From positions 62,001 to 126,000 of the forward strand of contig JADBKP010000005.1 of assembly GCA_014896315.1 (NCBI GenBank): a stretch of 64,000 nt of DNA. Reading direction: 5' to 3'. Source of the DNA: Limnochordales bacterium. GTDB lineage: Bacteria > Bacillota > Limnochordia > Limnochordales > DUMU01. Positions 17,629-28,708 of this stretch are shown piece by piece (within the stretch, counting starts at the first letter, position 1; each line of letters starts with the position of its first letter). The position numbers were made by a program, and so were the translations under genes. The notes under the pieces are model-generated. The model was not told the origin of the DNA. It did no database searches and saw only the letters and a list, made by a program, of their open reading frames with translations.

Positions 17629-17923
17629 GGTGCAGCCTTCGTTTGAAGAGTCGCTGGCCAGGTTGGAAAAGATTGTTGAACAACTGGAGACGGGCGAGAA
17701 CTCGCTGGCCGAATCGCTGCAGCTATTTGAAGAGGGTATCAAGCTCGTTCGCCTGTGCAATGAGAGGTTGGCAGCGGCAGAGTTGCGCATCCGGCAGTTA
17801 ACCGAGATGCCTGACGGTACTGTGAGCGCCGTTCCCTTTGCGGTCACGCCGGAGTTGGGCGTTCAGAATCGAGAAGCTTCCACAAGCAGTAAGGATGGAG
17901 GCGGAGAAGGCGTCGATGAGTAG
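17612..17923 (+). CDS. xseB: Exodeoxyribonuclease VII small subunit
   Basis: The small helical subunit of ExoVII. Family signature SFEESLARLEKIVEQLETGE followed by LAESLQLFEEGIKLVRLCNERL. The C-terminal tail of about 35 residues is longer than usual. The start is TTG 17612 (AAGGGAAGGGGG upstream) or GTG 17630; both overlap xseA or directly follow it. The 3' end overlaps ispA. Confidence 0.93.
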   Translation: MPSENEVQPSFEESLARLEKIVEQLETGENSLAESLQLFEEGIKLVRLCNERLAAAELRIRQLTEMPDGTVSAVPFAVTPELGVQNREASTSSKDGGGEGVDE

Positions 17924-18848
17924 GTTGACCGGTCCGGAAGAGCTGCCCGGCTGGGAGGAATTGCGGAAGCTGGTGGACGCGGCGGTGGCGGCGGCGGTGT
18001 GCGCCGAGAACTTCCCTCCCCGCCTCTGGCAGTCGATGCTGTATACGGCAGGTTCGGGAGGGAAGCGACTGCGGGGAAGCCTGGTCCTGGCCAGTTGTGC
18101 GGTGGCAGGAGGAGACTGGCGACGGGCGCTGCCGGCAGCCGTGGCGGTCGAGTTGATCCACGCCTACTCCCTCATCCACGATGATCTCCCGTTAATGGAC
18201 GATGACGACTTTCGCCGCGGTCGGCCTACCAACCATAAGGTTTTCGGACCGGCGGTGGCTCTCCTGGCTGGTGATGCCCTGCAAGCGTATGCTTTTGAGG
18301 TACTGGTCGATCAGGCAAACGGTGCGCCCCCCGAACTGCAGCTGGCCTGGGTGCGGGAGCTGAGCGCGGCGGCGGGGCCCGGGGGGCTTGTGGGCGGGCA
18401 GCTTGTCGACTGGGAGGTAGAAGAGGGGCGCTGGCAACAGCTGGCGGAGGGAGAGCTGGCGGCAGCGGGAATGCTGGAGTATGTCCACCGGCACAAGACG
18501 GCAGCCCTGATCCGGGCGGCGGTACGCATGGGTGGGCTTGCCGCCGGGTTGCGGGAGGAAGACGACGTTCTGGTAAGGCTTGGGGTGTACGGGGCCGAGC
18601 TTGGCCTGGCCTTCCAGATAACAGACGACCTGCTCGACGAGGTGGGCGATCCGGAGGCGACGGGCAAGGAGGTAGGCCGGGACAGGCGGCGGGGAAAGCT
18701 TACGTACGTGGCCCTCTATGGGGTGCCGGTAGCACAAGCGGCGGCCCGCCGGGCAGTTTGGCGGGCGCAGGAGGCCCTAACGCCTTTGGGGGAGCGGGGG
18801 TTACCGCTGGTTCAACTGGCAGAGCAGGTTCTGGCACGTACCCGCTAG
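17916..18848 (+). CDS. ispA: Polyprenyl synthetase (farnesyl/geranylgeranyl diphosphate synthase)
   Basis: Chain-elongating isoprenyl diphosphate synthase. Both aspartate-rich motifs are visible: the first as HDDLPLMDDDDFRRGRPT, the second as FQITDDLLDEVGD, with GGKRLRG near the N-terminus binding IPP. Length is 310 residues from ATG 17916, which has GGAGAAGG upstream and overlaps the xseB stop. It completes the xseA-xseB-ispA cluster. The exact chain length of the product cannot be read from sequence alone. Confidence 0.94.
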   Translation: MSRLTGPEELPGWEELRKLVDAAVAAAVCAENFPPRLWQSMLYTAGSGGKRLRGSLVLASCAVAGGDWRRALPAAVAVELIHAYSLIHDDLPLMDDDDFRRGRPTNHKVFGPAVALLAGDALQAYAFEVLVDQANGAPPELQLAWVRELSAAAGPGGLVGGQLVDWEVEEGRWQQLAEGELAAAGMLEYVHRHKTAALIRAAVRMGGLAAGLREEDDVLVRLGVYGAELGLAFQITDDLLDEVGDPEATGKEVGRDRRRGKLTYVALYGVPVAQAAARRAVWRAQEALTPLGERGLPLVQLAEQVLARTR

Positions 18849-18849
18849 G

Positions 18850-18878
18850 TTGACCGGGGCGGGCAGCCATGGTATAGT
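18850..18878 (+). promoter_or_regulatory. Sigma-A promoter of the OLE-like RNA
   Basis: TTGACC at 18850-18855 and TATAGT at 18873-18878 are separated by 17 bases. The -35 starts right at the end of ispA. The predicted start near 18885 coincides with a perfect 7-bp hairpin (CACAATT/AATTGTG at 18887-18905), as expected for a structured RNA with its own promoter. Confidence 0.8.
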
Positions 18879-18884
18879 AGCACG

Positions 18885-19563
18885 TGCACAATTATCGCAA
18901 TTGTGGCTGATTCAGTATCCTAGTGCGGCAACGCACCGGCGAAGGCGGCCCTAAAAAGCCGTCGCTGGCATACCAATGAAGTCCCTGGCAGTGGCTGGAG
19001 ACGCCCAGTCTCGGGTCGCTGCTGGGGGTTAAGGAGCGGGGGCGATCCGCAACGGCATGCGGGCGTTGACCCCCTCTCCGCGGAGACCCTACGCCGTGGT
19101 CGGGGGCGGGCTTGTCCTGCCTGCTGCCGGCTATGGCCTGGGAATGAACCTGCATCCGGTCGGCGAAAACCGGCTGGGTGCAGTGTAGCCTGCCTTGCGT
19201 GGCCCGGTGGGAAAGAGGTTCCGAGGCTTGTCCCGCAGGCCGGGGACAAGATGCTCGCTGCTCGGCAAAACCGGGTTGCTAAAGAGGCTAGCCGGTGCGG
19301 GGCTGTTTGAGGAAAACTCCTAGGCTGACCCGAATGGGGGTAGGCCGGGATTGCGGTGTGGTCTAAGTGGTAATCCAGCCGCGCTCTGGGCGACCGGGCG
19401 CAGCAGCCGGAAAGGGGAAACCGCCCTGCCGGCGACGGCGGGGAGGGCTGTTGGGAAAACCTGCTGGACCTCAAGCCACAATGTTTACCGGTCCTACTAT
19501 CAGCCAGTCTCGCCCCGCGAGGGGGCGCATTCTTGCACCCGCAAAGCTGCGGGTGCTTTTTTC
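18885..19563 (+). ncRNA. ole: OLE RNA (ornate large extremophilic RNA) candidate
   Basis: An 840-bp gap between ispA and the next gene contains no credible protein. It is bounded by a sigma-A promoter and a perfect intrinsic terminator, giving a transcript of about 680 nt. It holds many GC-rich inverted repeats, for example a 7-bp stem at 18887-18905 and GTGCG-GCAA-CGCAC, a GNRA tetraloop hairpin, at 18923-18936. The order ispA, long RNA, small membrane protein, dxs is the published context of OLE RNA, a roughly 600-nt RNA of anaerobic and extremophilic Firmicutes that binds the membrane protein OapA. Assignment rests on context, size and structure; no covariance search was run. Confidence 0.85.
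19535..19562 (+). terminator. Intrinsic terminator of the OLE-like RNA
   Basis: GCACCCGCA and TGCGGGTGC form a perfect 9-bp stem with a four-base loop (AAGC), followed by six T residues. It defines the 3' end of the long RNA and separates it from oapA. Confidence 0.93.
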
Positions 19564-19617
19564 ACCAGGCATACCTGCCAGGCTTGCACAGTAACAGGAT
19601 CGGCCCGGATCAGACCA

Positions 19618-19640
19618 GATCGGATCGGATCGGATCGGAT
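19618..19640 (+). repeat. Short tandem repeat of GATCG
   Basis: Four complete copies of GATCG plus a partial fifth lie between the RNA terminator and oapA, with further GGATC-like units just upstream (19598-19612). The tract sits about 50 bases before the oapA start. It could be slippage-prone; no function can be read from it. Confidence 0.85.
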
Positions 19641-19687
19641 TGAGCTGTTCTCTTTTTGCTGCCTGGGAGTGAGGAAGGGTACCGGAA

Positions 19688-20269
19688 GTGGTTAAACGTT
19701 TTCTGGTAGTGGGAGGACTGGTGTTTCTGGCCTCGCTGCTTCTCACAGGGTTCACCCAGGAGGCAGCTGCAGCGGTGCCGCCCTTGCCCGCCGCTTCGCT
19801 TCTGATTCTGGTGATCGCCAGTGGCATCTTCTTCGATGTCATAGGGGTGGCGGCTGCTGCCGCTTCCGAAAAAGATCTGCACGCTCTGGCGGCGGACCGG
19901 GTCCCGGGTGCGGTTCAGGCGATCCGGCTGGTACGGAGGCGGGACCTGGTAGCGACGGTGACTTGCGATATGATCGGTGATATCCTGGGAACCATAGGAG
20001 GAGCTATGGGGGCTACTCTCGCGGCCCAGTTATCCCTGCCGGGGGTCCTGCAGGAGACGGTGGTTCGCTCGGCCTTAATCGTTGCGGCCACGGCGGGGCT
20101 TACGGTGGGCGGAAAGGCCGGGTTTAAGCAAGTAGCCTTACGTTATAATCAGGATATTGTGTTGCTACTGGGCAGAGTTCTCGCCCTGGTGGAAAGTGTG
20201 GTCGGCCGGTCGCTCTTGAATGATAGAAGGGCCGGTCGCCGGATCCGGCGACGAGCGAGGAGGCGGTAG
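19688..20269 (+). CDS. oapA: OLE-associated membrane protein OapA (DUF21/CNNM-like)
   Basis: A 193-residue membrane protein with four or five hydrophobic segments. After an N-terminal signal-anchor-like helix come a helix with GIFFDVIGVAAAAAS, the soluble stretch LHALAADRVPGAVQAIRLVRR, and helices starting DLVATVTCDMIGDILG and VVRSALIVAATAGLTV. The pattern recalls the DUF21 domain of CNNM/CorC magnesium transporters. OapA binds OLE RNA at the membrane in Bacillus halodurans. The C-terminus is strongly basic (RRAGRRIRRRARRR), fitting RNA contact. GTG 19688 follows GAGGAAGGG. The dxs gene starts one base after its stop. Confidence 0.87.
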   Translation: MVKRFLVVGGLVFLASLLLTGFTQEAAAAVPPLPAASLLILVIASGIFFDVIGVAAAAASEKDLHALAADRVPGAVQAIRLVRRRDLVATVTCDMIGDILGTIGGAMGATLAAQLSLPGVLQETVVRSALIVAATAGLTVGGKAGFKQVALRYNQDIVLLLGRVLALVESVVGRSLLNDRRAGRRIRRRARRR

Positions 20270-20270
20270 G

Positions 20271-22208
20271 GTGCGGCTCCTTGATCAGATTGATTCCCCG
20301 GGGGACCTGCGCCGGCTTTCCCGGACGCAGCTCCAGCAGCTCGCACAGGAGCTGCGCGAGGAGATCATCAACATTGTCTCTACCAACGGGGGACACCTTG
20401 CGCCCAACCTTGGTGTCATCGAACTGACGCTGGCGCTGCATACCGAGCTGGATACCCCCCGAGACAAGCTGATCTGGGATGTGGGACACCAGACCTATGC
20501 CCACAAGTTGCTTACCGGAAGGAAAGATCGGTTCGCCACCCTCCGGAAACAGGGAGGGCTTAGCGGGTATCCGCGCCGGGATGAAAGTCCGTACGATCCC
20601 TTTGGCGCGGGGCACGCGAGCACCTCTATCTCGGCCGCGCTCGGCCTGGCGGTGGCCAGGGATCAACTGGGGGAGAAATACCGGGTCGTGGCGGTGATAG
20701 GCGATGGTGCCCTCACCGGTGGCATGGCCTACGAGGCCCTCAACCATGCCGGACAACTGCGGACGCAGCTCCTTGTCGTTCTCAACGACAATGAGATGTC
20801 CATCTCCCGGAACGTCGGGGCAATAGCCCACTATCTAAACCGGTTGCGCCTCGAGCCCGGCTACAACCGGGCCAAGACAGACCTCAAGGCCCTGGCCGAA
20901 CGTCTGCCGGGCGGCCGGCGGGCATTTGACCTTGCCTCGCGGGTTAAGGACTCGGTCAAGTACATGCTGCTGCCGGGCGCTCTCTTCGAAGAGCTCGGCT
21001 TCGCCTACTTCGGGCCGCTGGACGGCCACAACATCGAGGAGTTGCGGCAGGCGCTCCGCTATGTGCTCAAGCTTAATGAACCCGTGTTGCTGCACGTGAT
21101 CACCCAGAAAGGTAAGGGATACCGTCCCGCCGAGACAGATCCCGCCCGTTATCATGGAACGGCGGCTTTTGACCGTTCAACCGGTCGGGCGACCGCCCAA
21201 CCCGCCGGGCCTTCCTACTCGGCAGTCTTTGCCGACACTCTTATCCAGCTGGCTGCGGAGGACTCCCGCATTGTCGCCATCACGGCCGCCATGCCGGAGG
21301 GCACAGGCCTGGACCGCTTCGCCAGGGTCTATCCCAACCGCTTCTTTGACGTGGGTATCGCTGAACAGCATGCAGTCACCTTTGCTGCCGGTCTGGCTGC
21401 GGGCGGCCTGCGACCGGTGGTGGCCATTTACTCTACCTTTCTTCAGCGAGCCTACGACCAGATCATTCATGATGTCTGTCTGCAGCGTTTGCCGGTTGTC
21501 TTTGCCATCGACCGCGCCGGGCTGGTCGGAGAGGACGGTGCTACCCACCAGGGGGTATTCGATCTGGCCTTCCTGCGGGCGATACCAAATCTCATCCTGG
21601 CTGCTCCCCGCGATGCCGAAGAGCTGCGCCAGCTCCTGCGCACCGCCTTGGAAGCCGACGGGCCCTTTGCTATCCGCTACCCACGGGGAACGGCGCTCTG
21701 GCGCAGGGGCGAGGTGCCTTCCCCGGAAGTCCTTGCCCAGCCGATCGAGCCGCTGGTGGTGGGTCGCGGTGAGGTCCTGGCCGAGGGTTCACGGGTGGCT
21801 CTGGTCGCATACGGAGCGATGGTGGAGCCGGCATGGCAAGCGGCAGCGTTGCTGCGGCAGACAGGAGTTACGGCCACGGTGGTCAATGCTCGTTTTCTCA
21901 AACCGCTAGACGAGACCCTGCTCCTGCGGATTGGTCGCGCCCATTCCCTTGTGGTCACCATCGAGGAAGGAGTACTAGCCGGAGGGTTTGGCAGTGCCGT
22001 CCTGGAGTTGTTCTCCAGTCACGGCCTGCAGGTGCCGGTATTGCGGCTCGGAGTGCCGGACCGTTTTATCGAACACGCCTCTCAGGCTGAGCAACGGGAG
22101 GCGCTGGGATTGAGTGCCACCGCCATCGCAGCGGCGGTACGGGAGCAGCTGGCAGCGGGCGATACTGCGGAGATCCTGCCGCCGCGATTGGTGTCGGTCG
22201 TGCACTGA
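20271..22208 (+). CDS. dxs: 1-deoxy-D-xylulose-5-phosphate synthase
   Basis: Thiamine-diphosphate enzyme starting the MEP isoprenoid pathway from pyruvate and glyceraldehyde-3-phosphate. Visible blocks are [33 protein letters not shown], the ThDP motif [15 protein letters not shown] through [17 protein letters not shown]-type [12 protein letters not shown], and the transketolase-like centre [22 protein letters not shown] 20271 has GAGGAGG upstream. The 645-residue length is normal. It shares a cluster with ispA, linking both genes to isoprenoid synthesis. Confidence 0.97.
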
Positions 22209-27928: not shown

Positions 27929-28708
27929 ATGACAGTCGGCAAGCCGATAGGACTGCTCGTTGCGGATGCTGACCGCAACTTTACCGACCAGTTCACGGAA
28001 TATCTGCGAAAGACTTATCACCCTTTCGTTCTCCTGGGAGTTGTAACCGATGGTCCTTCCGTAGTCCGGGCGTGTGAAAGGCAGCAGCCCGACATTCTGC
28101 TACTTGATCTCGTCTTGCCGGAGTATGACGGTCTTGCCGTTCTCGAGCAGCTTAAGGAGCGTACCTTCCTTGACCGAACAAAGCTCGTCATCCACACGGC
28201 GCTTTACGATGAAAGTGTGGTCACCCGGTGTGTTACAAATTACCGGGTGGCCTACTTTGCCGCCAAACCGTTGCAGTTGTCGCTTCTGCTCGCTCGTCTG
28301 CGCGAGGTAGCCCGGGGGGAGTTGCCGGCCGGCGTAGGAGATGAGATGGTGCGGGGCGTCCGTCAGCTGGAAGAGGCGGCTATGGATCACCTGACTCGGC
28401 TCGGTATCCCCGCCCATTACAAGGGATACCAGTACCTCAAGGATGCAATCCGCCTGACGGTGGTTTCGCCGGAGCTGCTCTCTCCCATAACCAAGCGGCT
28501 CTATCGCATCGTGGCGGAACGCCATGCTACCAGTCCGGATCGTGTAGAACGCTCGATACGTCATGCTATCGAGACTGCCTGCACCCGGGGGAACCTCGAG
28601 TTCTTGCAGGCGCTCTTTTCCTACAGCGTCGACCGGGAGCGGGGTAAGCCCTCGAACTCCCTCTTCATCGCCCGCCTGGCCGACAAGATTCGGGTCGAAT
28701 CCCGATAG
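27929..28708 (+). CDS. spo0A: Stage 0 sporulation protein A, master response regulator
   Basis: Master regulator of sporulation entry, activated by phosphorelay or kinases. Receiver domain: acidic pair in LLVADADRNF, phosphorylation site in ILLLDLVLPEYDG, Lys in YFAAKPLQ. The sporulation-specific DNA-binding domain includes GYQYLKDAIRLTVVSPELLS, ITKRLYRIVAERHATS and VERSIRHAIETA. Length is 259 residues from ATG 27929; AGGAGGCG lies about 13 bases upstream. The spoIVB-spo0A pairing is conserved in spore formers. Confidence 0.96.
   Translation: MTVGKPIGLLVADADRNFTDQFTEYLRKTYHPFVLLGVVTDGPSVVRACERQQPDILLLDLVLPEYDGLAVLEQLKERTFLDRTKLVIHTALYDESVVTRCVTNYRVAYFAAKPLQLSLLLARLREVARGELPAGVGDEMVRGVRQLEEAAMDHLTRLGIPAHYKGYQYLKDAIRLTVVSPELLSPITKRLYRIVAERHATSPDRVERSIRHAIETACTRGNLEFLQALFSYSVDRERGKPSNSLFIARLADKIRVESR

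Follow-up and report, generated by a model that had tools for sequence, protein, structure and literature searches.

A full-length OLE RNA locus with an OapA orthologue in a predicted double-membrane bacterium of the Limnochordia

OLE RNA is, to our knowledge, among the largest structured bacterial RNAs without a known biochemical function. It has been found in 2,822 Bacillota genomes and is missing from the Negativicutes, and Fernando and Breaker suggested that it is relevant to Gram-positive cell-wall biology, a tie that rests partly on its absence from these Gram-stain-negative bacteria (PMC11332333). Lyon and Breaker argue that one helix of the RNA, P3, spans the membrane, and that a second RNA domain might reach the peptidoglycan (PMC12265935). 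A long non-coding gap in the genome of a Limnochordales bacterium, within the 64-kb stretch of DNA analysed here (the window), raises the question of whether it holds such an RNA and, if so, what an OLE ribonucleoprotein (RNP) would be doing in a cell that appears to have two membranes.

The gap spans positions 18849–19687 (839 bp; all features of the locus given below lie on the plus strand). It is flanked upstream by an ispA-type farnesyl diphosphate synthase gene (17838–18848; NCBIfam FPPsyn, 293.7 bits against a cut-off of 275; start codon uncertain) and downstream by a gene for a membrane protein of 193 aa, after which comes dxs, encoding 1-deoxy-D-xylulose-5-phosphate synthase (20271–22208; TIGR00204, 861.6 bits; GTG start at 20271 inferred). 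The original prediction had described a coding-free gap of 840 bp between these isoprenoid genes and called it an OLE ribonucleoprotein locus. An Rfam cmscan search bore out the RNA call, matching OLE (RF01071) at 18891–19519 with 403.7 bits (E 4e-115; gathering score 50 bits) and covering model positions 1–616 of 616 from end to end. OLE is the sole Rfam family matched within the window and is present as one copy in the host genome, and the OLE model found no match in any of 14 control genomes. The locus is a genuine copy of this giant folded bacterial RNA.

Transcription signals frame the match on both sides, as had been predicted. A sigma-A-type promoter with an extended −10 element (TTGACC-17-TATAGT; 18850–18878; 10 of 12 matches in a pattern scan) precedes the OLE gene, and an intrinsic terminator lies at 19535–19562, with a 9-bp stem (19535–19556) followed by T6. 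Of 47 distinct homologous upstream regions, 37 have a promoter ahead of the conserved CAGUA motif; in 36 it holds the same position, with the −10 box starting 25–40 nt upstream of CAGUA, whereas shuffles gave 1.2 on average and at most 5. These bacteria therefore conserve a promoter dedicated to OLE. The predicted primary transcript, whose start is taken from the −10 box and whose end is taken from the terminator, runs from 18885 to 19562 (approximately 678 nt) and has a predicted folding energy of −365 kcal/mol (z −9.9 relative to 20 shuffles). The unconstrained minimum-energy fold recovers a large part of the OLE architecture, with P3 and the long P9 among the recovered helices. Of the earlier proposal of an RNA of about 680 nt with room for an extra domain, the length agrees with the predicted transcript and the domain did not hold. 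At 629 nt, the match exceeds the 616 model positions by 13 nt; no insertion in the covariance-model (CM) alignment is larger than 12 nt, and the one of that size lies in a hairpin loop. The added length consists of a predicted 5′ leader hairpin (CACAAUU-AUCGC-AAUUGUG; 18887–18905) overlapping the unpaired start of the model (Rfam positions 1–53), a predicted 3′ hairpin (CGCCCC-GCGAG-GGGGCG; 19511–19527) in the interval from the OLE core to the terminator, and the terminator itself. Near-perfect tandem 5-bp units (ggatc/gatcg) were also observed at 19617–19640, between the terminator and oapA.

Motif scans and the CM alignment located the protein-binding and dimer-contact elements described for OLE. 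The 5′ strand of P2, CAGUAUCCUAG (18913–18923), pairs with 19319–19327, the helix name being assigned from PMC12265935, where one of the two published OapA-site regions lies in or near P2; the two strands were found by motif scan in 52 of 52 and 48 of 52 loci. The k-turn bound by OapC (PMC9723947) comprises a J4a/5 half in the region of CCAAUGAAG (18972–18984) and a second half, UUAAGG (19029–19034); on inspection of the alignment both halves, AUGAAG and UUAAGG, are present, and the C-helix pairs are C-G and C-G. Four loops with dimer-contact roles taken from PMC12265935 are all present in the window RNA: the P4 loop CCUAAAAA (18950–18957), the P5.1 loop (19001–19008) and its kissing partner in the OLE dimer, the P6.1 loop CAACGGCAUG (19050–19059), and the palindromic GGCC loop of P9 (19237–19242; also seen in the fold). 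These loops recur in 48–51 of 52 loci by motif scan. A GGCGAC hairpin loop (19431–19436) lies in the region that we take as P13, the published OapB-binding site (PMC12265935). Among the homologues, the OLE RNA of a gut Clostridia metagenome-assembled genome (MAG) spans 845 nt (L005, 3104–3948), more than 200 nt above the usual length.

The proposed membrane-crossing helix, P3/P3.1, has its 5′ strand at 18924–18941 and pairs with approximately 19290–19308, as supported by duplex prediction, covariation, and the minimum-energy fold. Here the predicted duplex has 14 bp (−30.8 kcal/mol), with 5 and then 9 bp on either side of an AA/GG internal loop. Both P2 and P3 are unpaired in the Rfam OLE model. 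Across eight P4-side pairs of P3 in 41 distinct homologues, 296 of 328 cells were canonical, compared with a maximum of 227 in shuffles and 152–179 in slid controls. Most positions carry several pair types across homologues, and the helix therefore shows strong covariation that is independent of the Rfam structure. Its length is fairly constant, mostly 12–16 bp, while its base composition is unconstrained and its sequence varies freely. A seemingly longer P3 in the class (mean 14.4 bp) than in other OLE RNAs (13.1 bp) rested on nine outside sequences and one outlier and was dropped.

The 193-aa protein is encoded at 19688–20269 with a GTG start, ending just before dxs. It is 33–62% identical to ten homologues, all encoded in OLE loci, with 23 invariant columns in the alignment, and OLE lies upstream at all 11 homologue loci recovered by protein search. 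By this sequence evidence the protein is an orthologue of OapA, as the original prediction had it, and not a member of an unrelated family. NCBIfam holds no OapA or OapB model that fits. The DUF21-like motif noted earlier fared less evenly: the Pfam CNNM model scored 20.5 bits, below its gathering score of 28.4, but the predicted fold supports the assignment. The AlphaFold2 model (pLDDT 88) had as its six best PDB matches in Foldseek the CNNM transporters MtCorB and CorC, with probabilities falling from 1.00 to 0.51 and modest E-values (MtCorB, best, probability 1.00, E 0.013; CorC, probability 0.84, E 0.56). The model thus supports an OapA made of a CNNM-type membrane domain without CBS and CorC domains. 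Identity as an MpfA transporter was ruled out, the protein being too short for CNNM, a CBS pair, and CorC_HlyC, with only a sub-threshold CNNM match. Apparent in-frame TAG codons in oapA of three relatives (G023, G026, and G027) were set aside after the G023 and G027 loci were checked; both genes are intact, with the TAG outside the coding sequence.

The published partners of OLE appear to be encoded elsewhere in the genome. A gene between rpoC and rpsL specifies an 87-aa L7Ae-like protein matching OapC (best PDB matches YbxF, E 4.7e-14), and bS21 is encoded as well (PF01165, E 7.6e-23). The gene immediately after map specifies a protein of 110 aa whose best PDB match, though a weak one, is OapB (7k9b; E 0.0087), and from this match and the gene position the protein is probably OapB. 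The locus thus resembles the Halalkalibacterium halodurans OLE RNP in its full-length RNA, adjacent oapA, set of OapC, bS21, and probable OapB genes, and isoprenoid and DNA-repair gene neighbourhood. It differs in a host that is diderm with LPS genes and has two MpfA-type proteins. Whereas the H. halodurans cluster is polycistronic (PMC12265935), the OLE gene of the window is preceded by a conserved promoter of its own and separated from oapA by a terminator. With the OLE dimers solved by cryo-EM from Clostridium acetobutylicum and a second Clostridium species (PMC12286853, PMC12265935) it shares the P4, P5.1, P6.1, and P9 loops and the k-turn sequence, but it has a GC-rich 14-bp P3, the 5′ leader hairpin, and a diderm host. 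OLE variants 1 and 2 of the TANB77 and RF39 clades (PMC11332333) belong to the same RNA class; unlike them, with P7–P9 shortened or missing and often no OapB site, the window RNA is full-length in a genome encoding OapC and probable OapB.

Taken together with work on H. halodurans, we consider it very probable that the locus encodes an inner-membrane OLE RNP that acts with OapA to tune divalent-cation and stress responses. The RNA would be made from its own promoter, end at its own terminator, and fold into the conserved OLE architecture, probably dimerising via the P4, P5.1/P6.1, and P9 loops. OapA would hold it at the inner membrane and supply a CNNM-like ion-transport module, and OapB, OapC, and bS21 would bind it as they do in H. 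halodurans. The OapA model matches the membrane domains of the MtCorB and CorC relatives of MpfA but lacks the CBS and CorC domains of these Mg2+ transporters, for which RNA may substitute; in such an arrangement, OLE with OapB, OapC, and bS21 would replace the regulation that MpfA carries in protein domains, and the RNP would most likely tune Mg2+/Mn2+ handling and stress responses. The identities of the RNA and OapA, the partner genes (OapB probable), helix covariation, promoter, gene orders, and diderm genes come from the present analysis, and membrane localisation, dimerisation, partner binding, and the cation and stress role are carried over from the H. halodurans publications.

The host sets this system in an unusual cellular context. 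In its 2.59-Mb genome (96.8% complete), LpxD, LptF/G, and LptA-type genes follow the gene for a 605-aa BamA that has both POTRA and Omp85 domains; with LpxC, which is also encoded, they make up a gene set indicative of a diderm with LPS. Spo0A is encoded in the same window downstream of the OLE locus (approximately 28385–28690), with a second Spo0A_C-domain protein on contig C17. The outer-membrane and LPS genes and Spo0A bear out the earlier guess of a diderm sporeformer. We surveyed 68 genomes of the class, inferred as Limnochordia, and found OLE in 60, Omp85 in 66, LpxC in 31, and OapA in 58. OLE and Omp85 occur together in 58 genomes and OLE and LpxC in 26, and all eight OLE-negative genomes also lack OapA. 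Thus an expectation that outer-membrane hosts lack OLE, as the Negativicutes do, does not hold in this class. No link between LpxC and OLE was found among the class genomes, with OLE present in 26 of 31 with LpxC and 34 of 37 without (p 0.45). In six families (f11–f16) LpxC was found in no genome while nearly all keep Omp85, which suggests an outer membrane without standard LPS. Three single-contig genomes of the same order (3.31, 3.02, and 3.82 Mb; two belonging to one family, the third to a different one) have loci with 71–73% GC. Limnochordia diderm walls have been described by electron microscopy, and exactly three closed genomes of cultivated Limnochordia are reported, two of them in one family (70.96 and 69.48% GC; PMC11456536). 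Cultured members of the class include Limnochorda pilosa, Geochorda, and Carboxydochorda.

If P3 does cross the membrane, the second RNA domain would be placed between the two membranes in the window host. Alternatively, P3 is a structural helix like any other, all of the RNA is cytoplasmic, and having a second membrane makes no difference to OLE, a reading to which we give slightly better than even chances. It agrees with the equal frequency of OLE in genomes with and without LpxC and with the unconstrained base composition of P3, and we know of no precedent for a charged helix in a bilayer. It runs against the cryo-EM-based argument for a membrane-spanning P3 (PMC12265935) and against the combination of constant length and free sequence, which fits a spacer of fixed length, though also any helix. 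On whether the RNA crosses the membrane, we lean slightly towards no. The more far-reaching proposal is that in Limnochordia an inner-membrane OLE RNP, with P3 crossing, places its OapB-binding second domain in a genuine periplasm, opposite the outer membrane, and that OLE is an ancestral envelope-stress and cation device predating outer-membrane loss rather than a thick-wall adaptation; we regard this as unlikely.

The relation of OLE to the MpfA transporters bears on whether the RNP is still needed in this host. In the class, OLE-positive genomes carry on average 0.53 MpfA-type CorC_HlyC copies and OLE-negative genomes 1.38, and two or more MpfA genes occur in 6 of 60 OLE-positive compared with 4 of 8 OLE-negative genomes (p 0.013, uncorrected for relatedness and with eight negatives). 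Within one genus, three OLE-positive genomes have no MpfA, and two OLE-negative ones have one and two. The family of the window is an exception to this pattern, as the host (G000) and two relatives (G055 and G056) all carry OLE and two MpfA. In the host these are complete MpfA-type (CNNM-CBS-CorC) genes, approximately 8 kb apart on opposite strands (G000:C14:242394-251705; L024). Because they run against the usual anticorrelation, OLE may be partly redundant in this host. A stronger form of this idea, that the RNP in this family is redundant or starting to decay and that two full MpfA-type transporters can replace it, seems distinctly improbable to us. It would account for the three genomes with both systems, for OLE scores in the genus (404 and 391 bits) that are among the lowest full-length scores of the class, and for OapA residue N93, nearly invariant, being C in the window protein; yet the conserved loops, P3 helix, and partner genes are all intact, as are the promoter and terminator, and a neighbouring high-GC family is also low-scoring but has fewer MpfA. 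The trade-off with MpfA, which recurs in the class with clear exceptions, this family among them, helps to test whether both systems are interchangeable.

Gene order speaks to how the RNA acts. OLE stays beside ispA and dxs while the position of oapA varies. At one locus the order is reversed to ispA-oapA-OLE-dxs (L062, 4272–5757), and two families have OLE, or the genes that flank it, at the ispA-dxs site with no oapA there (L067 on contig C36 of G005, L068 of G006, and L071/L072 of G004). The oapA genes of G004 and G006 lie on other contigs, that of G006 next to a gerA-type spore germination operon on the opposite strand; G005 (99% complete) has a full-length OLE with no detectable oapA. Because OLE keeps its place while oapA may sit on either side of it or on a separate contig, the RNA most likely acts in trans. 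That it is instead a cis-acting leader, a riboswitch or attenuator controlling oapA and dxs, is hardly tenable: a terminator does separate the RNA from oapA, and at most loci OLE comes before oapA-dxs, but we rejected this reading on the variable oapA-OLE order (upstream in L062, and on another contig in G004 and G006 with OLE still beside ispA), and it is also opposed by conservation of the full OLE architecture including helices of no regulatory need, by a promoter dedicated to OLE, and by the abundant membrane RNP reported for published OLE (PMC12265935). In two Oscillibacter MAGs (L007 and L008), OLE was seen approximately 2.4 kb upstream of oapA rather than adjacent, and the usual xseA, xseB, and ispA neighbours were not found within the retrieved stretch.

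The Halanaerobiales are another diderm Bacillota lineage. Our literature search, which took in a minority of subscription papers, found no paper pairing OLE RNA with Limnochordia or with Halothermothrix, and in the OLE literature so covered the word diderm occurs in one paper, in a reference title only. Limnochordia go unnamed in PMC11332333; they were probably part of the GTDB data used there, and as data their carriage of OLE may therefore not be new. The window locus adds a member to the known OLE kind, and its interest comes from the double-membrane host. Since the host and nearly the whole class carry outer-membrane genes, OLE cannot be peculiar to Gram-positive cells with a single membrane, and its carriage by approximately 90% of such a class weakens the Gram-positive-wall argument. 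The three cultured species offer an experimental system in which any RNA domain located beyond the inner membrane would be confined to an isolatable periplasm, and with these double-membrane relatives both the membrane topology of OLE and its supposed link to the Gram-positive wall can be put to the test.
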